Below are positions 30,270-48,599 of a stretch of 56,183 nt of DNA, piece by piece. Numbering within the stretch: the stretch's first letter is position 1; every line of letters starts with the position of its first letter. The notes beneath the pieces were generated by a model. That model did no database searches, was not told where the DNA came from, and saw only the letters and a program-made list of their open reading frames with translations. Made by a program: the position numbers and the translations under genes. Origin of the DNA: a virus; the IMG/VR virus record IMGVR_UViG_3300047562_000883, positions 1 to 56,183 of that record; one strand, given 5' to 3'.

Positions 30270-30288
30270 CTAACAACTAACTTGACCT

Positions 30289-30317
30289 AAAAAGGGGAAC
30301 TCTGTTCCCCTTTTTTT
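30289..30317 (+). terminator. Intrinsic terminator upstream of the curli locus
   Basis: AAAGGGGAAC / GTTCCCCTTT, a 10-bp stem with a TCT loop, followed by seven T residues. The last T is the first base of a TATAAATA late promoter, so this hairpin insulates the curli locus from upstream transcription while the promoter restarts it. Confidence 0.93.
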
Positions 30318-30324
30318 ATAAATA
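30317..30324 (+). promoter_or_regulatory. Late promoter of the curli/cyclase operon
   Basis: Exact TATAAATA fused to the end of a terminator T-run. The first ATG (30332) lies seven bases later with no Shine-Dalgarno, so the first message would be near-leaderless. Most genes from 30332 to 37168 are linked by overlaps and could be read from this promoter. Confidence 0.78.
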
Positions 30325-30331
30325 GAAGAGT

Positions 30332-30628
30332 ATGGAATTTGTATTTGAATTAATAACTGAATTGGGATTTCCTGTTGCTATAGGTATAACAATGGGAGTT
30401 TTTATATTTGTTATTATTAAACAAATCCTACAAGGTATAGTTGATAGCATCGAGACACTTACCATGTTCTGTAAGTCACTAGAGAATCGTGCAAGAACCA
30501 TGTCAAACGAAATGATAAAGATTGACATGTTGGTATCGTCTGCATTGGAACTAAGACCTGATATTGAGAGAGTTGCTCGTGCAGAGAACTTTATCGAAGA
30601 TGGTAAACTAGATGTGAGAAGAGATTGA
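30332..30628 (+). CDS. Membrane protein of a paralogous pair, first gene of the curli operon
   Basis: 98 residues. N-terminal membrane segment (LGFPVAIGITMGVFIFVIIK) then an amphipathic helical region. The motif L…GFPVAIGI parallels YGFPIVMAVGLGYFI in the next gene, so the two are probably paralogues that arose by duplication and may act together in the membrane. Similar small proteins in other phages are sometimes called holin-like. Ends in a TGATG overlap. Confidence 0.6.
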   Translation: MEFVFELITELGFPVAIGITMGVFIFVIIKQILQGIVDSIETLTMFCKSLENRARTMSNEMIKIDMLVSSALELRPDIERVARAENFIEDGKLDVRRD

Positions 30629-30912
30629 TGGAAGAATTGAATATTATTGATCTAGTTTCACAATATGGATTTCCAATTGTTATGGCAGTTGGTCTAGGAT
30701 ACTTTATATACTATGTGTGGTGGTTCATTGGTGAACACATAGAGCCTCAAATTGAAAAGATGCACTTTGCATTGATAAGAGTTATAGATCAAACACGAAT
30801 GTTAGACCAAGACCTTATCCGTTTACAACAGAAAGTTGATGTTGTATTAGAATACAGAGAGAACGAGAAGAAGAGGGCTACAAAAACCAATGAAGAAAAT
30901 AATACTTCTTAG
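30628..30912 (+). CDS. Membrane protein of a paralogous pair, second
   Basis: 95 residues from the ATG at 30628. One membrane segment (YGFPIVMAVGLGYFIYYVWW) followed by a long charged helix (IRVIDQTRMLDQDLIRLQQK), the pattern of several small phage membrane proteins and of some holins. Paralogue of the preceding product. It overlaps csgF by 23 bases, so it is translationally linked to the curli export genes. Confidence 0.6.
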   Translation: MEELNIIDLVSQYGFPIVMAVGLGYFIYYVWWFIGEHIEPQIEKMHFALIRVIDQTRMLDQDLIRLQQKVDVVLEYRENEKKRATKTNEENNTS

Positions 30913-31372
30913 TCTACTAACACTACCAGTTTTAGCAGACGAGATAAAATTTGGATTTAAGAATCCATCGTTTAGTGGTGTCGGTACAGGCGCACATTAT
31001 CTTACAATCGAAAACCAAGAACACTCTCGGAAGAAAGCAATCGAAGATGCTCTAGAGTCTGCAAGAAAGGCTGCTGAAAGAGAAGCCGAGAATACAACCC
31101 TTTCAAAATTTATACGAAACTTAGAGAGTAGAATCTACGCTCAGTTTGCAAAACAACTTGTAGAGTCAATGTTTGCAAATGATAATCCTGCTGGGTTCGG
31201 TTCGTTTGTTTTAGAAGGTAACACCATTACATGGGAAGTTATAACAGATGAAAGTGGTACAGAATTTATTCGTCTGATTGTTGTTGCAGAAGATGGCACA
31301 ACAACAGAAGTTGTAATACCAGTTGGCACTGGTAACTTTGCACAAGATCCTGATACGCCAGGAGACGGATAA
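30890..31372 (+). CDS. csgF: Curli assembly factor CsgF-like protein
   Basis: 160 residues. A signal peptide (MKKIILLSLLTLPVLA, cleavage about residue 16) is followed by DEIKFGFKNPSFSG, which matches the mature N-terminus of bacterial CsgF (FQFRNPNFGG in E. coli), the segment that inserts into the CsgG pore constriction. The C-terminal part (TITWEVITDE…IRLIVVAEDGTTTEVVIPVG) matches the beta-hairpin domain that ends CsgF. In bacteria CsgF sits on the outer face of CsgG and couples export to fibre nucleation. It overlaps the preceding gene and abuts csgG with a one-base overlap, the gene order expected for a CsgF-CsgG pair. Confidence 0.88.
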   Translation: MKKIILLSLLTLPVLADEIKFGFKNPSFSGVGTGAHYLTIENQEHSRKKAIEDALESARKAAEREAENTTLSKFIRNLESRIYAQFAKQLVESMFANDNPAGFGSFVLEGNTITWEVITDESGTEFIRLIVVAEDGTTTEVVIPVGTGNFAQDPDTPGDG

Positions 31373-32283
31373 TGCTTAGAGTTCTACTTGCACTCACACT
31401 TATGATTAGTGGTTGTGCATCAATTCCAAGATACTCAGATGATCCTCAGGAGTGTAATCCTGCAACATGGGGTCCAGAGTATGACCATGATCTATGGAAT
31501 TATGCAAAGGCAGCAGGCAGAACTTTTGAAAGAGCAATACCATTCATATGTAAAGATGAAGCAGAAGTAGTAAGACTTCCATCTTATGTTCAACTTTTAG
31601 AACTGCCACCTGCAGAAGAACAACCTGTAGTTGCAGTTTATAATTTCTTAGATAAAACAGGTCAAAGAAAATCTGTAGATAACATTGCATCATTCTCAAC
31701 AGCAGTTACACAAGGTGGTGTTGAAATGGTAATTGATGCATTAAAAACGGCAGGTCAAGGTAAATGGTTTAGAGTTGTAGAAAGAAATGGTATTGATGCT
31801 CTGATTAGAGAAAGACAGATCATTCGTTCTGCAAGACAAGAATATGCAGCTGCTACGAATACAGAGGCAGAGGGCATACAACCACTTCTATTCGCAGGTA
31901 TTATAATAGAAGGTGGTATTATAGGTTATGACACCAACCTATTGACAGGAGGTCGAGGCGCAAGATATCTTGGCATAGGTGGTGCAAGACAGTATCGTAA
32001 AGATGCTGTTACAATCTCCATGAGAGCAATATCTGTTCTCACTGGAGAAGTTTTATTGAATGTACAAACTCGAAAGACTGTACTAAGTTATGGTTCTTCT
32101 GGAGATGTTTTCAGATTCATTGAAGAAGGAACAGAGTTAGTAGAGTATGAAAGTGGAGTTGGAAATAATGAGTCAGTGACTTACGCCACACGAACAGCGA
32201 TTGAAGCTGCCGTGTTGGAATTAATATACCAAGGACACCATAGGGGTTTTTGGAAAATAGAGGGGTATAACGAAAATGAATAA
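31372..32283 (+). CDS. csgG: Curli export pore CsgG-like lipoprotein
   Basis: 303 residues (E. coli: 277). A lipoprotein signal ends at LMISGC, and mature CsgG landmarks follow: VAVYNFLDKTGQ, FSTAVTQGG, KWFRVVERNGIDALIRERQI, IIIEGGIIGYDTN, GARYLGIGG, and VLTGEVLLNVQTRKTVLSY. Bacterial CsgG is a nonameric outer-membrane channel. In the constriction loop the E. coli Tyr and Asn (PYPASNF) are not conserved (SVDNIASF), while the Phe is. No CsgE is encoded nearby. The gene is flanked by csgF and a curlin-like gene, so a functional export unit is likely. Confidence 0.93.
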   Translation: MLRVLLALTLMISGCASIPRYSDDPQECNPATWGPEYDHDLWNYAKAAGRTFERAIPFICKDEAEVVRLPSYVQLLELPPAEEQPVVAVYNFLDKTGQRKSVDNIASFSTAVTQGGVEMVIDALKTAGQGKWFRVVERNGIDALIRERQIIRSARQEYAAATNTEAEGIQPLLFAGIIIEGGIIGYDTNLLTGGRGARYLGIGGARQYRKDAVTISMRAISVLTGEVLLNVQTRKTVLSYGSSGDVFRFIEEGTELVEYESGVGNNESVTYATRTAIEAAVLELIYQGHHRGFWKIEGYNENE

Positions 32284-33010
32284 ACTAATTAGTTTAATTA
32301 TATTATTGTCGACATCATTCGTTTTCGCACAGGCCACTGATGACAACGAAATTAAGATCACACAAACAGGTGATACTCTAAAACTATACATCGATCAAAT
32401 CGGTTTTGGAAACAAAGTCGGTGGGGACGATGCAAGTGGTGGAACTTTAAGTTCAATGTCTATAACTGGTGCAACACTTGATTTCAACTTAGATTTCACT
32501 GGAGACCAAAACATTTTATTTGGGCCAGTTGTTGCAGACAGTTCATATTACATAATCGATATAACAGGAGACTCTAACGAGATAGACTGGAACATCGGAT
32601 ATGTCGGTAGCGCTGATAGTTCAAACATAAACTTTGATATCACAGGTGATTCAAACACCTTTGATTTAGATCAAGGTTATGTTTACAGTGCAGAAAGACT
32701 TGATGCCGATCTCATATTAATTGGAAGTTCTAATGTTTTTGACATTGATTGGGAAGCAGATGACCTTATATGGACATTTGATGTAACAGGCAGTTCTAAT
32801 AATATCAATACACTACAGAATGACGGTGCAGGTAAAATTGATTTTACCTTAGACGGAGACAGTGCTGATGTAGATATCACTCAGATATCTGGTACTTGTT
32901 CACCATCTAATGCAGCTTGTTCATCACCTAATGGTGTTATTGTTTTAGATGTAACTAGTGATAATGCAATCATTCAACTTACACAAAAAGATTCGACTAC
33001 CGATTCTTAA
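32276..33010 (+). CDS. Secreted curlin-like repeat protein A
   Basis: 244 residues with a clear signal peptide (LISLIILLSTSFVFA, cleavage about residue 19). The mature start DDNEIKITQTGDTLKLYIDQ followed by IGFGNKV has the curlin spacing I-x-Q-x-G-…-x-Q-x-G-x-x-N. The rest contains about five repeats of a variant motif: FTGDQNILF, ITGDSNEIDW, ITGDSNTFDL, LIGSSNVFDI, VTGSSNNINT, suggesting a beta-solenoid rather than a canonical CsgA. It overlaps csgG by 8 bases, so it is the likely export substrate. Related to the product at 34265-35002 through the shared DDNEI start. Confidence 0.75.
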   Translation: MNKLISLIILLSTSFVFAQATDDNEIKITQTGDTLKLYIDQIGFGNKVGGDDASGGTLSSMSITGATLDFNLDFTGDQNILFGPVVADSSYYIIDITGDSNEIDWNIGYVGSADSSNINFDITGDSNTFDLDQGYVYSAERLDADLILIGSSNVFDIDWEADDLIWTFDVTGSSNNINTLQNDGAGKIDFTLDGDSADVDITQISGTCSPSNAACSSPNGVIVLDVTSDNAIIQLTQKDSTTDS

Positions 33011-34109
33011 TTTTTTATTACTCAGTGGGGTTGCTTTCGGCAACCCCATTGGTGATATCGTAGAGTCAACAGGTATTGGCTCAATCACTCGAAATTCAGA
33101 AGATGTGGGCAACAATGTTGGTTTAGAAATTCTACTGAAAGACGAAGCAAGAACTCAACAAGGTCGTATGAAGATTGTCTTCTTAGACAACGAAGTATTA
33201 GATATGACCGAAGGAACATACGCTTACATAGATGAGGCGTATTATGATCCAGACCCAAATTTATCCAAGATGTCAATACGAATGGTGCAAGGTACAGCAC
33301 GATTCACATCAGGTGCAGGTTTACGAATCAACAAAGCAAATGTAGATGTATCAACACCTACAGCACAAATCACAATCAAAGGTACAGACTTCACAACCTC
33401 TATTGATGAGATTGGAAGATCACTCATCATTCTTTTACCAGACGAAGATGGTAATGCATCTGGCATTATAGAAGTATCAAACAATATGGGAACAATTACA
33501 CTAGATGAAGCATATCAAGCAACAATGGTATCATCTTTAGATGCATCACCCACATCACCTGTGACGATTGCAAACATAACACCAGGTATGATTGACAATA
33601 TGTTCATTGTAAATCCACCTTCAGAGATCAAGCGGGCAATGGATGATCAGAGAGCAAACGAACAGAATGGTGATCAAGGCATACTTGATGTTGACTTCTT
33701 AGCATTCAACGAACTCGAACAAGATGCACTAAAAGATTCAGAAGAAGATTTAGAGTTCTCAGAGTTAGACATAGATATGTTAGGTGTAGACTTTCTTACT
33801 GATCTCTTAGATGTTGTAGAAGAACTTACAAAGACTACAGTAACACTTGCAGATGCACAAGCAGACACAGGTGGTGGAACAGTTACACTCAAAGGTGCCG
33901 CTATAGGTTTCAACAGTGATTCACAATACAACATCTTTGTACAAGACGGAGACTTATACTTCTATCGTAATGTGAATGGTGTTATTGAAATTATAGTTGC
34001 AAATGGTAATTCTGGTTATATAAACACGACAGTAGAAGGCTACTCAGGTAGAATAGACTTCGGTACAGGTGACCCAACAATAGAGATTATAATCAATCAA
34101 TCTAACTAA
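32964..34109 (+). CDS. Exported FecR-domain protein
   Basis: 381 residues from the ATG at 32964, overlapping the curlin-like gene by 47 bases; a GTG six bases upstream is possible, and there is no strong ribosome site. Signal peptide RLPILNFLLLSGVAFG, then a FecR-like domain: RNSEDVGNNVGL, GRMKIVFLDNEVLDMTEGTY, MVQGTARFTSGAG, VSTPTAQITIKGTDF. This fold occurs in periplasmic regulators of iron uptake and in proteins exported with outer-membrane structures. The C-terminal half is acidic. Position between two curlin-like genes suggests a periplasmic or surface role in fibre assembly, sensing or anchoring. Confidence 0.75.
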   Translation: MQSFNLHKKIRLPILNFLLLSGVAFGNPIGDIVESTGIGSITRNSEDVGNNVGLEILLKDEARTQQGRMKIVFLDNEVLDMTEGTYAYIDEAYYDPDPNLSKMSIRMVQGTARFTSGAGLRINKANVDVSTPTAQITIKGTDFTTSIDEIGRSLIILLPDEDGNASGIIEVSNNMGTITLDEAYQATMVSSLDASPTSPVTIANITPGMIDNMFIVNPPSEIKRAMDDQRANEQNGDQGILDVDFLAFNELEQDALKDSEEDLEFSELDIDMLGVDFLTDLLDVVEELTKTTVTLADAQADTGGGTVTLKGAAIGFNSDSQYNIFVQDGDLYFYRNVNGVIEIIVANGNSGYINTTVEGYSGRIDFGTGDPTIEIIINQSN

Positions 34110-34130
34110 ATACCAACAGGAGGTAATTTT

Positions 34131-34277
34131 ATGGAATTACTATCAAAACTTGTTGATTGGCACAAGGGTAAAACACACCACTTTCAATCAGCACTTAGAT
34201 TAGATGATTATCACATGATGTGGATATCTTTTATGAAAGGAGTTATTTTAGTATTATTACTTCAATGGATATTTTAG
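34131..34277 (+). CDS. Small tail-anchored membrane protein
   Basis: 48 residues with the best ribosome site in the region (AGGAGGT). N-terminal soluble part (MELLSKLVDWHKGKTHHFQS) and a C-terminal membrane segment (MKGVILVLLLQWIF). It overlaps the second curlin-like gene by 13 bases. Unknown function; its coupling suggests that it may help translation or membrane targeting of that product. Confidence 0.55.
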   Translation: MELLSKLVDWHKGKTHHFQSALRLDDYHMMWISFMKGVILVLLLQWIF

Positions 34278-35002
34278 AAAAAACTAAAAAATCAAACGAC
34301 AAGCCACTCTTATGGATAGGGTGGCTTGTTTTACTATCTTATTGTTCGTTTGCTTTTGCAGACGACAATGAAATCACCATTCTACAAGAGGGTGATAACT
34401 TTTCTTTATCTGTTGTTCAGACAGGTTATAGCAATATCATTAAACAATGGTCATCAACAGAAGGAATAGATGGTGCAGACAATACTATTTCTATTGCACA
34501 AAATAAAAACTATGGTAGTTCTACCGATAAAAACATCATAGAAATTCGCAGAGTATGGGGAACAGGTAACGACCTAAAACTTGCTCAAGGATATATCATC
34601 AATGCAGACGGAAGTTTTTCTGTTGATAATGATGAGTATGGTGATACCTTTGTTCATGTAAATGTCACTGGTGATTACAACGATATAGAAATGACTCAAC
34701 GAACAAATAGTACTTCTTCAGGTCATTGGTATGGGTTACATCTCGAAGGTGATTACAATGATATAACTACCAATCAAAGAGAAGGTGGTGCTCATACATT
34801 AGATTTAGATATTTTCAATGATTATAATATTGTTGATGTTGTTCAAAAAAATAGTGGAAGTCATTATGCATGGATAAGACTTGACGGAACATACGGAACT
34901 GATATAACACTTGAGCAAAATTCTACAACTGGTCAAACATATTCAATTCAACAAAACTGTTACACAGTCGGTGGTTGTTCAGTCTCAGTAACACAAAACT
35001 AA
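34265..35002 (+). CDS. Secreted curlin-like repeat protein B
   Basis: 245 residues from the ATG at 34265. An unusually long N-terminus precedes the signal peptide (WIGWLVLLSYCSFAFA). The mature start DDNEITILQEGDNFSLSVVQ continued by TGYSNIIKQ has near-perfect curlin repeats (I-x-Q-x-G-x-N and V-x-Q-x-G-x-x-N). Further repeats read ISIAQNKN, DLKLAQGYI, VTGDYNDIEMTQ, LEGDYNDITTNQ, NDYNIVDVVQ, ITLEQN, and SIQQN, with a C-terminal cysteine pair. Paralogue of the product at 32276-33010. This is the better candidate for an amyloid-type fibre subunit or nucleator exported through CsgG. Confidence 0.8.
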   Translation: MDILEKTKKSNDKPLLWIGWLVLLSYCSFAFADDNEITILQEGDNFSLSVVQTGYSNIIKQWSSTEGIDGADNTISIAQNKNYGSSTDKNIIEIRRVWGTGNDLKLAQGYIINADGSFSVDNDEYGDTFVHVNVTGDYNDIEMTQRTNSTSSGHWYGLHLEGDYNDITTNQREGGAHTLDLDIFNDYNIVDVVQKNSGSHYAWIRLDGTYGTDITLEQNSTTGQTYSIQQNCYTVGGCSVSVTQN

Positions 35003-36840
35003 TGTACTCTTGGAAAACAGTATTAGTAACTATTGGTCTTCTAGTCGGTCTCAAAATATGGTCACCCTATATTGTTGAGAACATTCAATGGTCATGGTTT
35101 GACTTTCTTCATCAACAAAAAGAAAAGGTATTAGTAGATAATATTGTTCTTGTAGACATAGATGAAAAGTCATTACAGAAATACGGACAATACCCATGGC
35201 CGAGAAACATCTACAGAGACATACTCTTACAAACAGATCCTACAAACACACATGTATTCAATATGGTGTTCAGTGAACCAGATAGATTTGGTGGCGACTT
35301 AGCATTTGCAGAAGGACTTATCAATCGTCTAACGATCATAGGTTCTGCACCCACAACACAACTTGATACAGGTTCGGCACCTTATGTACCCACATCTGTA
35401 TTCGGTGGTGGTTCGATTGAAGATTCTATTTGGAAGTTTCCAGGCATTTCATCACCCATACCTATACTCAGAGACAACACATATGGTGTAGGCGTAACAG
35501 TTTCTACACCTGCACAAAAGGGTACTGCAAACTTTGATGGTACAATTCGTTCTGCACCACTACTTGTGATGGCAAATGATCAAGTGTATCCGTCAATTGC
35601 ACTAGAGACATTGAGAGCATACTTTGATCAACCTAGTTATCAGACAAGAGTTGTACCTGAATTAGGCATAGAATGGATACGAATGGGTAGACAACCACCC
35701 ATCAACACAACACCAACAAGTGATATAATGATCTCTTATTGGAATGAATTTGACTCTATTTCCGCCTCTGAACTTGCAGACTCAGATATCAATAATAAGA
35801 TTCTGATATGGGGTCTAACGGCAGAGGGTCTGAATAATCCAGTTTCAACCCCAATGGGTGTAATGTATCCTCACGAAGTGCAAGCCTCAATTCTCCAAAC
35901 CGTTTTGCAAGAAGTTCAAATACAACAATCCTACTATCTTGAATTACTTGAAGTTGTTCTTCTTGTGATAGTTCTTTTAGGTATACTTCTTGTGGTCTAC
36001 AAAACTCCCACAACTCTATCGGCGATAGGGAGTCTAGGTGTTGTTGCAGGTCAGGTGGGATTGGGTTACTATATTTGGAATGAGCATCTAATTCTTTTCG
36101 ATACTTTTTATTCATCAATTAGTTCCTTGATTGTTTTTGGTCATGCTTCTTTCAACAAATACTATGTAACATATCAACTCAAAGAACAAATCAAGAAGCA
36201 GTTTCAAAAATATTTATCTCCTGACATGGTTGAAGAACTGCAGAAAGATCCAAGTAAACTCAGACTTGGTGGTGATCGTAAAGAAATGACATTCATGTTT
36301 ATGGACATTTGTGGGTTTACACCAGTCTCAGAATATTATAAGAACAATAATGATCCTGAGGGACTTGTAAATCTTATCAATAAGTACCTTGACACAATGA
36401 CCAAAATCGTACTAAAATACAATGGTACAATCGATAAATATATGGGTGATTGCATTATGGCATTCTGGAATGCACCACTCGATTGTGAAGACCATGCCGA
36501 CAAAGCAGTAGAGGCTGCAATAGAGATATCAAAGAAAGCTGATGAACTTATTGAAGAGCTTGAGAAAGAAGGCCTGCCTAGGATTGATATTGGTATCGGC
36601 ATCAATACAGGCGAATGTATCGTTGGAAACATGGGTTCAGAACTTCGATTCGACTATTCAGTCATTGGAGATGCAGTCAACCTTGCCTCTCGACTCGAAG
36701 GCCAGACTCGCAATTACAATGGGGTTAGAGTGCTGTTATCGGAGTTCACTTATCGAAAGTGTAAAGATAGAGAACTCAAACGAGTTGATTCTATCCAAGT
36801 TAAAGGAAAGTCAGAGTCAGTTACCGTCTATACAATTTAA
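35002..36840 (+). CDS. CHASE2-class III adenylate cyclase, membrane-bound
   Basis: 612 residues. An N-terminal membrane segment (about 7-22) precedes an extracytoplasmic CHASE2 domain (NIVLVDIDEKSLQKYGQYPW…, about 45-300). Three membrane segments (about 312-335, 337-358, 362-383) follow, then a class III cyclase domain. Catalytic residues are intact: metal-binding Asp435 (FMDICGFT) and Asp483, Lys479 and Asp557 at the purine-recognition positions (DKYMGDC; VIGDAVN), and Asn560/Arg564 (NLASRLEG). The Lys/Asp pair predicts ATP as substrate and cAMP as product. It overlaps the curlin-like gene by one base, so it belongs to the same operon. A membrane-signalling enzyme in a lytic phage is unusual. 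Confidence 0.93.
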   Translation: MYSWKTVLVTIGLLVGLKIWSPYIVENIQWSWFDFLHQQKEKVLVDNIVLVDIDEKSLQKYGQYPWPRNIYRDILLQTDPTNTHVFNMVFSEPDRFGGDLAFAEGLINRLTIIGSAPTTQLDTGSAPYVPTSVFGGGSIEDSIWKFPGISSPIPILRDNTYGVGVTVSTPAQKGTANFDGTIRSAPLLVMANDQVYPSIALETLRAYFDQPSYQTRVVPELGIEWIRMGRQPPINTTPTSDIMISYWNEFDSISASELADSDINNKILIWGLTAEGLNNPVSTPMGVMYPHEVQASILQTVLQEVQIQQSYYLELLEVVLLVIVLLGILLVVYKTPTTLSAIGSLGVVAGQVGLGYYIWNEHLILFDTFYSSISSLIVFGHASFNKYYVTYQLKEQIKKQFQKYLSPDMVEELQKDPSKLRLGGDRKEMTFMFMDICGFTPVSEYYKNNNDPEGLVNLINKYLDTMTKIVLKYNGTIDKYMGDCIMAFWNAPLDCEDHADKAVEAAIEISKKADELIEELEKEGLPRIDIGIGINTGECIVGNMGSELRFDYSVIGDAVNLASRLEGQTRNYNGVRVLLSEFTYRKCKDRELKRVDSIQVKGKSESVTVYTI

Positions 36841-37168
36841 AGAACCGTCTCTACTTTCACCACAAGAACTTTTTTGGACACTACAAGTCTTAGACATTTG
36901 GACTACCTATGAGGGTATGAAATACGAATGTGTCTATGAAACTAATCCTCTTCTACCTAGAAGACCTGATTTGAATGATCTAGTTATTCACAAAACAAAA
37001 TGGTTAGCATGGGTGCCAGTAATATTACAGAATAACACAACATTGACAGATGAAGAGAAACAAGATGTATTCAGACCAGGCAATCGTATGATGATTGCAG
37101 TGGTGTTTAATAATCTTTTAGTTTTAGAAAGAGTAAAAAAGAGAGAAAATTGTAAAAAAATAGGTTGA
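36719..37168 (+). CDS. DUF5658-like membrane protein (start uncertain)
   Basis: About 149 residues if the ATG at 36719 is used; that start overlaps the cyclase gene by 122 bases in another frame, and a later start is possible. After the cyclase stop the protein reads LFWTLQVLDIWTTYEGMKYE, then ETNPLLPRRPDLNDLVIHKT, which fits DUF5658-type small membrane proteins (a D-x-x-TTY motif and E-x-NPL). Two or three hydrophobic segments follow. Role unknown; last gene of the curli/cyclase array. Confidence 0.55.
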   Translation: MGLECCYRSSLIESVKIENSNELILSKLKESQSQLPSIQFKEPSLLSPQELFWTLQVLDIWTTYEGMKYECVYETNPLLPRRPDLNDLVIHKTKWLAWVPVILQNNTTLTDEEKQDVFRPGNRMMIAVVFNNLLVLERVKKRENCKKIG

Positions 37169-37194
37169 AAAAACCAGATTAGTCATTATATAAT
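37165..37194 (+). promoter_or_regulatory. Sigma70-like promoter before hsp20
   Basis: TTGAAA (37165-37170), 18-base spacer and consensus TATAAT (37189-37194). The late octamer TATAAATA begins on the last base of the -10, so the gene could be read both early and late. Confidence 0.68.
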
Positions 37195-37201
37195 ATAAAT
37201 A
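37194..37201 (+). promoter_or_regulatory. T4-type late promoter overlapping the hsp20 -10 box
   Basis: Exact TATAAATA, sharing one base with an upstream TATAAT. Transcripts would begin just before the hairpin at 37207-37229. Confidence 0.68.
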
Positions 37202-37206
37202 TAAGA

Positions 37207-37229
37207 GTAGATGCTCGGGTGAGGTCTAC
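37207..37229 (+). other. Hairpin in the hsp20 mRNA leader
   Basis: GTAGA / TCTAC outer stem with an inner CTC / GAG stem and GGGT loop, about 30 bases before the hsp20 ATG. It sits at the 5' end of transcripts from both candidate promoters. It may stabilise the message or act as a thermosensor; there is no T-run, so it is not a terminator. Confidence 0.5.
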
Positions 37230-37260
37230 GAAATTAACTTGCTTAATAAAGGAGAAAACT

Positions 37261-37677
37261 ATGTCAATTTATGACGATATCTTTGGGCGAACATTTCCGT
37301 TCGCAATTGGGTTCGACAGAACCTTTTCACTACTAGAAAGAGCTGCAGAAGCACCTTCTATCAACTATCCACCTTACAACATTATCAAGGAAGATGACGA
37401 ACATTTTCGCATTGAACTTGCTGTTGCTGGGTTTGATAGATCAGAACTCAAAGTCTCAAAAGAGAAAAATGTTCTAACTATCGAAGGTAAAAAAGAAAGT
37501 GGTGAAGATGAGTCGTATCTTCATAAGGGACTAGCCTCTAGGTCTTTCAAAAGATCATTCACACTTGCTGATGATGTACAAGTCGTTGGCGGTGATCTAA
37601 AGAATGGTATTTTGATTATCAACTTAGAGAGAGTAGTACCAGAAGAAGATAAACCACAACTTATCGAAATCAAGTAA
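37261..37677 (+). CDS. Small heat-shock protein Hsp20
   Basis: 138 residues from the ATG at 37261, which has AAGGAG upstream. The alpha-crystallin domain is clear: NIIKEDDEHFRIELAVAGFD, LKVSKEKNVLTIEGKK, and RSFKRSFTLADDVQV followed by the C-terminal GILIINLERVVPEE. It is a holdase chaperone; Hsp20 genes are a common core-like feature of T4-like cyanophages and marine relatives. It has its own leader and dual promoters. Confidence 0.95.
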   Translation: MSIYDDIFGRTFPFAIGFDRTFSLLERAAEAPSINYPPYNIIKEDDEHFRIELAVAGFDRSELKVSKEKNVLTIEGKKESGEDESYLHKGLASRSFKRSFTLADDVQVVGGDLKNGILIINLERVVPEEDKPQLIEIK

Positions 37678-37684
37678 AACCCTA

Positions 37685-37720
37685 TTGACTGGTAGCATCA
37701 CTTGTGATATAGTGGTGCTA
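37685..37720 (+). promoter_or_regulatory. Peroxiredoxin promoter with overlapping palindrome
   Basis: TTGACT (37685-37690), 17-base spacer, TATAGT (37708-37713). A 9-base inverted repeat, TAGCATCAC (37693-37701) and GTGGTGCTA (37712-37720), with one mismatch, flanks and covers the -10 box. This is the geometry of an operator, so a repressor or redox regulator may control it. The leader contains an AGGAG ribosome site. Confidence 0.65.
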
Positions 37721-37742
37721 CTATAATATTATAGGAGTTATT

Positions 37743-38240
37743 ATGTTAAATGTAGGTGATACAATACCAAATGTTGTTATGCCAGTTAGGGCAGACGGCG
37801 CTTGGAAACATTTGAATACCCATGAACAGTTTGCAGGAAAAAGAGTGATCATCTTTGCACTGCCAGGCGCATTTACACCAACTTGTTCATCATTTCAACT
37901 TCCTGGTTTTGAAACAAATTTTTCAAAGTTTCAGGAGAAAGGAATAGATGAGATTTATTGCTTGTCTGTAAATGATTCTTTTGTTATGAACTCATGGTTT
38001 GAAGCACAAGGTGTTCAAAATGTTAGACCATTGCCTGATGGCAACGGCGAATTTACCGAACTTATGGGAGCATCTGTAAAGAAAGCAAATTTAGGTTTTG
38101 GTTTTAGATCATGGAGATATGCAATGGTTGTCAATGACAATGTAATTGAATCAGTCTTTGCAGAAGAAGGATTTGGTGATAACATTGAAACTGATCCTTA
38201 TGAAGTATCTTCACCAGAAAATGTCTTAGCAAATTTATGA
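37743..38240 (+). CDS. Peroxiredoxin (Prx5/AhpE-like)
   Basis: 165 residues. The peroxidatic motif PGAFTPTCS (Cys48) is exactly that of the Prx5 subfamily, and DGNGEFTELMGASV and GFGFRSWRYAMVVNDN match its conserved core. A second Cys is present in IYCLSV. The enzyme reduces hydrogen peroxide and organic peroxides. A phage-encoded copy could protect the infected cell from oxidative damage. It has its own sigma70-like promoter with a palindrome. Confidence 0.93.
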   Translation: MLNVGDTIPNVVMPVRADGAWKHLNTHEQFAGKRVIIFALPGAFTPTCSSFQLPGFETNFSKFQEKGIDEIYCLSVNDSFVMNSWFEAQGVQNVRPLPDGNGEFTELMGASVKKANLGFGFRSWRYAMVVNDNVIESVFAEEGFGDNIETDPYEVSSPENVLANL

Positions 38241-39355
38241 TCTTAGAGCATAAAGATGCTGAATATGCAGCCAGAGTCTTTATAGATTACTATAAGGACT
38301 TTGGTCGCATTGATGATTATCTCAGAAAAGTCAAACTAGAACGAATTGCAGAAATGCCTGTGTCTTTGCCTGGCATGGGACCAGAAGATGATATGTTTTC
38401 TGATTTCACCATGCACCCACAAGACATGCAGTTTGAATGTAGAATCATGGACAATGATCTATGGAATAATTACATTGAGATAGTTACTTCACATGCACTA
38501 GAGAAATCAATACCTGGTAAATCTTTGAAATGGGTAGTGTATGAGAAGAACACAAACAAGATAGTTGGTTTCATTCGCTTTGGTTCTCCAACTATAAACT
38601 CAAAACCAAGAAATGATTTCTTAGGCAAACCACTAGATACACAAGACATGACTGTTATGAAACGATTCAATGATTCAGCAATCATGGGTTTCACAATAGT
38701 TCCCACACAACCTTTTGGTTTTAATTATCTTGGTGGTAAACTTTTGGCAGGCATTTGTTGTTCGCATCTTGCCAGAAGAACTCTTAACGAAAAATATGGT
38801 GGCCCTTTTTGCATGTTTGAAACTACATCTTTGTATGGTAGTTCCAAGTCTTCATCAATGTATGATGGCATGAAACCTTTTCTCCGTTTTACAGGACTTA
38901 CAGTATCAGACTTTGTACCATCAATTAATGATCAAAAGTATAGAGACTTAAAGGCATGGTTTGAAGATAGAAACGGAGAACCTTTAATTGATCCACAAGC
39001 ATCAAGTCTCAAACTAAAAACACAAACAAAGATGATATCTATCATAAAGAAATCTTTACAAGGTGAATTACTAACTCAATTCAATAAAGTTTTTGAAGAT
39101 GCCAAACAACTTACAGAACAGAAAAGACAATTCTTATCTACTTATGGTTATAAAAATGTAAAAGAATATCTTACATTTGAAACTGATACATTAGAGAAAT
39201 CAGAGAACTATGATAGATATGAGTTCGATTCTATCGTAGAATGGTGGAAGAAACTTGCATCTAAGAGATATGATAAACTTAATAGTGAAAATAAATTGAG
39301 AACAGAACTAGAAGTTTGGAATCTAAATCCTGATAAGATAGATATTATAAGATGA
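38237..39355 (+). CDS. DUF4338 (DruA)-like protein, copy 1
   Basis: 372 residues. The central region (WVVYEKNTNKIVGFIRFGSP, DFLGKPLDTQ, GFTIVPTQPFGFNYLGGKLL, KYGGPFCMFETTSLYGSSKS) has the layout of DUF4338 proteins, the DruA family of Druantia defence loci. It is clearly paralogous to the product at 47313-48599 (shared IVPTQPFGFNY/IVPTQPLGFNY, GGKL and TTSLYG). Enzymatic activity of this family is not established. No other Druantia component is present, so the phage proteins probably do something else, or interfere with that system. Overlaps the peroxiredoxin gene by four bases. Confidence 0.6.
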   Translation: MILEHKDAEYAARVFIDYYKDFGRIDDYLRKVKLERIAEMPVSLPGMGPEDDMFSDFTMHPQDMQFECRIMDNDLWNNYIEIVTSHALEKSIPGKSLKWVVYEKNTNKIVGFIRFGSPTINSKPRNDFLGKPLDTQDMTVMKRFNDSAIMGFTIVPTQPFGFNYLGGKLLAGICCSHLARRTLNEKYGGPFCMFETTSLYGSSKSSSMYDGMKPFLRFTGLTVSDFVPSINDQKYRDLKAWFEDRNGEPLIDPQASSLKLKTQTKMISIIKKSLQGELLTQFNKVFEDAKQLTEQKRQFLSTYGYKNVKEYLTFETDTLEKSENYDRYEFDSIVEWWKKLASKRYDKLNSENKLRTELEVWNLNPDKIDIIR

Positions 39356-47312: not shown

Positions 47313-48599
47313 ATGTTCGATGATCCAAGAATACAAAAACAATTTGAAGAATACAAAGAATCTTATGTAGAACCTGAAACGGTTTCTAAAGAAGAACTTG
47401 TAGAAATGATTACAAAAGATTTGACATTTGCATCAAGTATGCCTGTGGAAGAATATACATTATACCTGAAATGGCAAGAATGTCAACGAAGATTTCCTGT
47501 ACAAGAAGTTGCTACACTTTTTGGTGAAGAAAAACAAATGGTAGATCAGGATAAACAAAAATTACTAGATGAATGTAGAAATAACATTTGGTTTCCAGAA
47601 GACCCTATGGATTTTGAGAAACTAGAACCAGAAATGATCTATACAAGTAAAACAGATATGACCAATCATTCTGCAGGCACATGGGAAAACATTTGGAATG
47701 TTTTTGCAACTATGTTGTCATCTATGAGAAACAGTTCAAACATTGGTCGTAATTTACATTATGTTATCAGAGACAGAGTAACCAAGAAGTATCTTGGTAT
47801 TACTTGTCTAACAGGTGACTTTATTGATCTCACACCAAGAGACGAATACATTGGTTGGGAAAGAGAGTACAAAACTAACAGTGGTAAATTAAACAATTCT
47901 TGTATTGGTTCTACAATAGTACCAACACAACCTCTTGGTTTTAATTATACAGGTGGTAAATTGATATCACTTCTTTGTCTATCGGATCAAGTTCAGAACG
48001 ATTGGGAAAATAACTATGGTGATAAACTTGTAAGTGTCACTACTACTTCATTGTATGGTAAATCTAAAGAACATGGTATATCTCAGTATGACAATCTAAA
48101 ATATTGGAAGAAAATGGGTTATAGTTCTGGTTCTCTAACATTTGAGTTGACAAAGGCAACAGAGAAAGAACTTCTTAAATATGGTGAAAAACATTTCAAT
48201 GAAAAGTTCTTCTCACTGTATGTTGCTACAAGAGAAAATGGTCAACCTTGGAAAAGAGATCATAGAAATAGATTCAGATCATTTATATTTTCAAAACTAG
48301 GCATACCTAAAGATATTCAGAAGACTGATCATGGTCGTGGCATCTATTACTCAATCTTATATGATAACACAAGAGAGTTTCTAAGAGGTGAAATTGAAGA
48401 AAGTCAATTAATTAAAAGATTTGATTCATCTGTAGATGCACTATCAGAACTATGGCGTGAAAAATATGCAAGAAAAAGAATTAATTCATTGTTGAGAGAC
48501 AATCGTACCATGTTAGATGAAACATTATTCTATGGCGATGTATGTTTTATGACATGGGAAGAAACCAAAGAAAAATATCTAGGTGATGTAGGCAGGTGA
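47313..48599 (+). CDS. DUF4338 (DruA)-like protein, copy 2
   Basis: 428 residues. DUF4338-type features are clearer than in copy 1: LGITCLTGDFIDLTPRDEYIGW (read as LGITCLTGDF and TPRDEYIGW), NNSCIGSTIVPTQPLGFNYT, GGKLISLLCLSD, QNDWENNYGD, VTTTSLYG and YWKKMGYSSGS. It is paralogous to 38237-39355, about 8 kb upstream. In bacteria the family is known from Druantia defence loci (DruA) and from orphan genes; its activity is not known. It follows gp41 by two bases in the same transcription unit. Confidence 0.6.
   Translation: MFDDPRIQKQFEEYKESYVEPETVSKEELVEMITKDLTFASSMPVEEYTLYLKWQECQRRFPVQEVATLFGEEKQMVDQDKQKLLDECRNNIWFPEDPMDFEKLEPEMIYTSKTDMTNHSAGTWENIWNVFATMLSSMRNSSNIGRNLHYVIRDRVTKKYLGITCLTGDFIDLTPRDEYIGWEREYKTNSGKLNNSCIGSTIVPTQPLGFNYTGGKLISLLCLSDQVQNDWENNYGDKLVSVTTTSLYGKSKEHGISQYDNLKYWKKMGYSSGSLTFELTKATEKELLKYGEKHFNEKFFSLYVATRENGQPWKRDHRNRFRSFIFSKLGIPKDIQKTDHGRGIYYSILYDNTREFLRGEIEESQLIKRFDSSVDALSELWREKYARKRINSLLRDNRTMLDETLFYGDVCFMTWEETKEKYLGDVGR

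Follow-up and report, generated by a model that had tools for sequence, protein, structure and literature searches.

A putative curli-type secretion module with a FecR–cyclase pair and an overprinted last gene in a T4-like marine phage

What does a T4-like phage do with a bacterial apparatus for curli export? The question is raised by positions 30,289 to 37,168 of the IMG/VR virus record IMGVR_UViG_3300047562_000883, a viral contig of 56,183 bases with 35% G+C (this whole stretch is called the window below). Here, csgF- and csgG-like genes are accompanied by two curlin-repeat genes, a gene for a FecR-domain protein, a CHASE2 class III cyclase gene and a last gene of the DUF5658 family. We consider it probable that a type VIII (curli) secretion module of bacterial origin was captured here and is carried as a late cassette by a T4-like marine phage that places fibres on infected cells. 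Its genes stand in a conserved order behind a late promoter, evolve under purifying selection and include a cyclase with an intact active site. As for its role, curlin fibres made late in infection, with export sensed by the FecR protein and the cyclase, appear most likely.

The module is not new in kind, since pelagiphage versions of it are already published. Zaragoza-Solas et al. (2020; PMC7029224) described csgF together with csgG in pelagimyophages and proposed 'sibling capture'. Buchholz et al. (2022; PMC9004378) proposed a pinholin or secretin role for the locus of phage Melnitz and stated that the curlin genes are missing. Wittmers et al. (2022; PMC9599517) reported the full set, including two curlin genes, FecR and an adenylate cyclase, in podo- and myophages, labelled the genes upstream of csgF as histidine kinases and proposed an alphaproteobacterial origin of the module; in one of their genomes, 023Pt_psg01 (MW574966), the first 50 kb hold no curli-annotated gene. 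The initial annotation of the window implied that a complete set with FecR, two curlin-type proteins and a cyclase was novel, which does not stand given the 2022 report. What is new relative to published work is the overprinted last gene, the relabelling of the small upstream pair, the C-terminal strand shared by the exported proteins, the pairing of FecR with the cyclase, the several genomic sites of the module and a survey of SAR11-like genomes.

Layout of the late unit

By its sequence signals, the region 30317–37168 is a single late transcription unit, composed as follows.

30287–30316, + strand: intrinsic terminator, GGGGAACtctGTTCCCC followed by a T-run, setting the module apart from the upstream genes
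30317–30324, + strand: T4-type late promoter TATAAATA, with 8 nucleotides between its end and the first start codon
30332–30628, + strand: S1, 98 amino acids, N-terminal membrane segment followed by a coiled coil, phrog_18771
30628–30912, + strand: S2, a paralogue of S1 with the same layout
30890–31372, + strand: CsgF, with the conserved mature N-terminal peptide FKNPSFSG
31372–32283, + strand: CsgG, putative outer-membrane pore lipoprotein, Cys15 invariant
32276–33010, + strand: curlin-repeat protein 1, conserved in relatives
32964–34109, + strand: secreted FecR-domain protein with a curlin-like strand at its C-terminal end
34265–35002, + strand: curlin-repeat protein 2, fast evolving
35002–36840, + strand: CHASE2 class III cyclase, with every catalytic and adenine-specifying residue present
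36542–37168, + strand: DUF5658 protein with a signal peptide; codons 1 to ~99 are overprinted on the cyclase gene in its +1 frame
37194–37201, + strand: next late promoter TATAAATA, in front of an Hsp20 gene, closing the unit

Both the insulating terminator and the late promoter of the initial annotation are present. Because the block is preceded by these two elements and followed by a further TATAAATA at 37194, it forms a self-contained late unit; the earlier description of a self-contained export module is likewise supported. From the sequence, better start codons are found at 30628 for S2, 32964 for FecR, 34265 for the second curlin and 35002 for the cyclase. Start/stop overlaps, initially read as running throughout, indeed join most of the genes, but FecR and the second curlin gene lie ~155 nucleotides apart.

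The motif TATAAATA occurs 10 times in the window, always on the + strand, against 4.9 expected on both strands, and 10 or more copies are reached in 5 of 100 shuffles. Of 108 related loci, 61 have an exact copy just before the module, compared with 3.1% of background windows, and a further 21 have a close variant there. The short spacing between promoter motif and first start codon (30317–30332) is similar in relatives, and the late message would be nearly leaderless.

Pore, substrates and two small membrane proteins

For the genes named CsgF-, CsgG-, FecR- and CHASE2 cyclase-like at the outset, each assignment is borne out by a Pfam match. CsgF is found with E 9e-11 over positions 6–132 of the 132-position profile; its F..P.F.G segment (FxNPxFxG type), by sequence the CsgG-binding peptide, is conserved in 13 sequences. 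A phmmer search of CsgF against solved chains found nothing, and the Pfam match decides its identity. CsgG matches its Pfam family with E 1.6e-51 and, across its core, the solved E. coli CsgG with E 3e-48 (phmmer) over residues 67–300.

The two curlin-type proteins are recognised by different routes. Curlin 1 exceeds the cut-off of Curlin_rpt (E 4.8e-5), and its profile retrieves the solved curlin structures 8C50 (E 1.7e-7) and the CsgA fibril 8ENQ (E 5e-4). Curlin 2 (34220–35002 as first called) matches Curlin_rpt weakly on its own (E 0.15), while 16 of 27 aligned members of its family match, the best with 3.4e-9. Its predicted structure is a beta-solenoid of strand-turn-strand units of ~23 residues (predicted local distance difference test score, pLDDT, 81.5), which aligns with 8ENQ with Z 11.2 over 109 residues at a root-mean-square deviation of 8.9, other solenoids scoring higher; Foldseek alone gave no significant match, and the structural class comes from this second-look alignment. 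A hydrophobic-x-hydrophobic-x-Gln (hxhxQ) strand closes curlin 1 in 88 of 89 sequences and curlin 2 in 65 of 73, and is likewise found at the C-terminus of FecR in 94 of 95 viral loci and in 0 of 6 cellular FecR proteins; these sequences are related, so that the counts are not independent. All three proteins predicted to be exported, curlin 1, FecR and curlin 2, thus end in the same curlin-like strand.

Judged by sequence, three features of type VIII secretion are in place: a CsgG pore, a CsgF with its N-terminal peptide and curlin-repeat substrates. The E. coli curli system (csgBAC, csgDEFG) shares these three elements with the window, whereas FecR and the cyclase are additions of the phage module.

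Upstream of csgF, S1 and S2 were overlooked as members of the block in the initial annotation and carry the histidine kinase label in Wittmers et al. (PMC9599517). In each, a single membrane segment, in which Gly12 and Phe24 are invariant, leads into a charged coiled coil. The kinase assignment was rejected: among 219 proteins the longest open frame is 136 codons from stop to stop, no His column is conserved, and a kinase domain is present in none of 22 members. In a search of 50,697 phage records they occur in only six, all of which carry these curli genes. At least in T4-like phages, S1 and S2 are, as read from their sequences, a pair of ~95-amino-acid membrane proteins that are parts of the module and not kinases.

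Buchholz et al. (2022) proposed that CsgG acts in lysis and egress, as a pinholin-like or secretin-like pore depolarising the envelope, to which S1 and S2 could be added as holin-like partners. The late promoter at the module, a weak match of S2 to a holin PHROG (E 5e-4) and the published proposal itself (PMC9004378) speak for it. However, searches with the 22 S1/S2 members gave no match to a Pfam holin family, and CsgG with its invariant Cys15 would be a lipoprotein pore of the outer and not of the inner membrane. Moreover, the proposal presumed that curlin substrates are lacking, yet the module has two conserved ones, both under purifying selection, and CsgF retains both its FxNPxFxG-type peptide and a full-length profile match. 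As substrates and CsgF are present and conserved, the lysis-pore reading is weakened, and we regard it as improbable.

Selection also differs along the module. The ratio of nonsynonymous to synonymous substitution rates (dN/dS) is 0.06–0.26 for S1, CsgF, CsgG, curlin 1, FecR and the cyclase, and 0.32–0.58 for curlin 2; between phages with 63–93% identity in curlin 1 and FecR, curlin 2 reaches only 40–43%. No other exported protein of the module evolves as fast as curlin 2. Such speed is expected of a protein that is exposed on the surface and involved in conflict, and it would fit superinfection exclusion or surface masking, in which exported curlins coat the cell and block receptors while fibres are secondary. 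This is among the options of Wittmers et al. (PMC9599517), but late expression comes late for exclusion, and we hold it to be unlikely, about on a par with the lysis pore.

A receptor pair and a gene written over it

The FecR protein (32958–34109 as first called) matches Pfam FecR with E 1.9e-7 and has a signal peptide. FecR is the only Pfam match common to its family (29 of 29 members), and structure comparison of the model aligns the domain fold with the PupR cell-surface signalling domain (Z 15.5). For the C-terminal domain of the model (residues 304–367), a structure search gave no identity, the list being filled by FecR-domain matches. FecR as an iron-signalling anti-sigma regulator was rejected because a cytoplasmic anti-sigma part is missing and only the FecR domain is shared by the 29 members. 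The same evidence bears on another suggestion (PMC7029224, PMC9599517), in which the pore serves to import large nutrients or iron complexes and FecR is the iron regulator. CsgG without CsgE would be an open pore, but FecR is a predicted secreted protein with a signal peptide and has no anti-sigma part, no FecI or TonB receptor is found within the module block, and the conserved curlin proteins and CsgF would be left unexplained. Import therefore seems very improbable to us.

The cyclase (34975–36840 as first called) matches CHASE2 with E 1.3e-33 and Guanylate_cyc with E 1.4e-21. In the window, its catalytic set consists of D444, K488, D492, D560, N569 and R573, corresponding to the two metal Asp, the adenine Lys and Asp and the transition-state Asn and Arg, and these positions are conserved in 59–63 of 63 sequences. 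By these residues, the active site is intact and has the characteristics of a class III adenylate cyclase.

CHASE2 class III cyclases occur in 173 of 385 alphaproteobacterial genomes, and 19 genomes encode a related FecR domain no more than 5 kb away from one; only one of these (G001, Hyphomonas) is a curli operon. As FecR thus stands beside a CHASE2 cyclase mostly without curli genes, the two look like a pre-existing alphaproteobacterial receptor pair. In alphaproteobacteria, FecR domains related to that of the phage are often part of giant surface proteins, with open frames 1,000 to 6,900 codons long, and some of these domains are encoded near CHASE2 cyclases, possibly as a general envelope sensor pair. 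A similar arrangement is known from Burkholderia, where a FecR–CHASE2 histidine kinase operon (BiofilmReg) controls biofilm (PMC5192318). Like the window, it pairs a secreted FecR-domain protein with a CHASE2 sensor, but there the output is a histidine kinase and curli genes are absent, whereas the output in the window is a cyclase.

The last gene (36542–37168) was correctly called at first, but its overlap with the cyclase was missed: it lies in the +1 frame, and its first 299 nucleotides are shared with the end of the cyclase gene (overlap 36542–36840). In 33 of 52 distinct relatives this frame is open for 96–137 codons within the cyclase, nearly always with ~84–110 open codons downstream as well, whereas loci without the downstream part have it open for 1–40 codons only, except L163 (96 upstream and 9 downstream). 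Overlap and downstream part occur together in 34 loci, including the window, all with a +1-frame ATG 88–115 codons upstream of the cyclase end. When synonymous codons were shuffled within each cyclase gene, P was below 0.01 in 34 of 34 such loci and in 0 of 18 controls. Synonymous codon differences in the overlap loci drop from ~0.46–0.52 to 0.32–0.33 inside the overlap, while controls stay at 0.55–0.60. A spurious out-of-frame reading frame was rejected on the bimodal open-frame lengths and the shuffle test. Since the frame is open beyond chance and synonymous constraint is confined to the overlap, the first ~100 codons of the last gene are, on this sequence evidence, overprinted on the catalytic domain of the cyclase and the gene is real. 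Its own dN/dS of ~0.65 was set aside because half of the gene is double-coded.

On a tree built from cyclase residues 1–520, which lie mostly outside the overlap, the overprint changes eight times, with the frame closed where it is lost; one gain and seven losses is the best reading. The predicted product has a signal-peptide-like start and matches DUF5658 in 22 of 25 members. A search of the 50,697 phage records with the DUF5658 half found nothing, and a literature search found no mention of DUF5658. The published pelagiphage type VIII secretion modules (PMC9599517, PMC7029224) and Melnitz do not have this gene. With ~seven inferred losses, the 300-nucleotide out-of-frame overlap is a natural experiment on writing a second protein over a catalytic domain.

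A more specific circuit may be imagined from these elements. FecR would dock via its C-terminal strand to exported or stalled curlins and switch the CHASE2 cyclase, giving a private cyclic AMP (cAMP) signal in hosts without class III cyclases and mostly without a cAMP receptor, while the DUF5658 protein would be a further envelope component, its production coupled to cyclase production. We regard this full circuit as rather doubtful, though a little less so than lysis or exclusion.

Distribution, origin and likely role

CsgG relatives were found in 27 loci in a first scan of IMG/VR and in at least 587 contigs in a second. The order S1-S2-CsgF-CsgG-curlin-FecR-curlin-cyclase is constant in ~110 viral loci, shorter strings being mostly contig ends; the loci L031–L036, L038, L039, L043, L049 and L080, contigs of metagenome-assembled genomes that look like binned phage, were treated as viral. 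Conservation as a block in related phages, on which the initial annotation had made its proposal depend, is thus what we find. Its mention of csgF and csgG in HTVC008M-type pelagiphages also holds for HTVC008M: gp011–gp019 (NC_020484) follow the order of the window, with two small genes, csgF, csgG, curlin, FecR, curlin and the CHASE2 cyclase. The curli operon of the Methylophilales phage Melnitz (MZ577097, PMC9004378) has the same order, and its GenBank record contains two curlin-repeat proteins although the paper states that the subunit genes are lacking. The cassette is located between regA and hsp20...gp43 in most loci, the window among them (regA and gp43). In HTVC008M and Melnitz, gp32 and tail genes flank it, in L135 and L150 it adjoins nol and gp59-gp32, and other loci have it downstream of phoH. 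Occupying several genomic positions, the cassette has therefore moved as a unit.

To trace its origin, the 80 nearest CsgG loci in bacterial genomes were surveyed. Alphaproteobacterial curli operons (e.g., Sphingomonas and Roseovarius, among L040–L110) resemble the window in having csgF-csgG followed by curlin-repeat genes, but they have no S1/S2 and, with one exception, no recognisable FecR or cyclase beside csgG. The exception is Hyphomonas sp. TMED17 (L037:8291–14383, on a 705-kb contig with ordinary cellular neighbours), where csgF, csgG, curlin, FecR and CHASE2 cyclase stand in phage order. It is the sole clearly chromosomal locus with that set among the 80, lacks S1/S2, and its FecR is without the C-terminal curlin strand. 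In a quick CsgG tree it branches beside all phage sequences on a long branch with support 88. This suggests that FecR and the cyclase were acquired along with the curli genes, and the position of L037 is in line with the view of Wittmers et al. that the module came from Alphaproteobacteria. Transfer in the reverse direction, from a phage to a Hyphomonas-like cell, is possible.

With portal, capsid, sheath, clamp loader, DNA polymerase gp43 and further genes of this kind, the window has the content of a T4-like myophage. Its capsid is 65–66% identical to those of Melnitz and HTVC008M, whereas its polymerase reaches at best 48% identity, to cyanophages, so that these two proteins do not point to one host. 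Next to the module, behind the following late promoter, lie Hsp20-like and peroxiredoxin-like genes (37219–38240) that adjoin it in several relatives. The contig also carries two members of phrog_19197, a family of unknown role (38237–39355 and 47313–48599).

Among the three roles offered in the initial annotation, fibres are best supported, the egress pore is weakened by the conserved substrates and CsgF, and envelope signalling plausibly forms one part of the system, not a competing explanation. Late in infection, CsgG and CsgF would form an outer-membrane pore that exports both curlin-repeat proteins, curlin 1 as the constant fibre part and fast-evolving curlin 2 as the exposed part. FecR, whose C-terminal strand is shared with both substrates, would contact the CHASE2 domain from the periplasm or on the fibre, and the cyclase would signal through cAMP how export or fibre assembly stands, with S1 and S2 as inner-membrane partners. 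The fibres would remain on the infected cell or ghost, most likely helping progeny to reach new hosts ('sibling capture') or acting as a block to competing phages.

Several observations weigh against this proposal of curlin fibres with a cAMP-reporting sensor. CsgE is a secretion adaptor that E. coli has but that not every curli system shares. The initial annotation saw no csgE in the window; because the window is a fragment, CsgE (PF10627) was searched in complete relatives, and no match is present in HTVC008M, Melnitz or the Hyphomonas genome, whereas the E. coli control was found. The phage curlin substrates open with a repeat-like segment and lack the N-terminal leader found in E. coli CsgA, and the CsgG alignment differs from E. 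coli at the constriction residues. In the cyclases of Melnitz (L003), L038 and L080, a related group, the equivalents of Asp560 and Asn569 are both Ser, so that Melnitz is without the adenine Asp and transition-state Asn that the window has. The contact from fibre to FecR to CHASE2 is one that we infer from motif and neighbourhood only. A cyclic nucleotide-binding domain is absent from 38 of 41 SAR11-like genomes (three have one), leaving no evident cAMP receptor, and from the seven phage records searched. Finally, Buchholz et al. saw no clumping of Melnitz-infected cells (PMC9004378), and no fibre has been seen.

Class III cyclases are present in 0 of the 41 SAR11-like genomes. Control of curli in E. 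coli goes through CRP; regulation of this type is unlikely if the host is SAR11-like.

In summary, the core claim is already published, and the added value of the present analysis lies in its testability: the substrates are identified, a signalling pair is named and a mislabelled gene pair is corrected. If the proposal is true, functional amyloid would be added to the traits of viruses, here in phages that infect some of the most abundant bacteria in the ocean.

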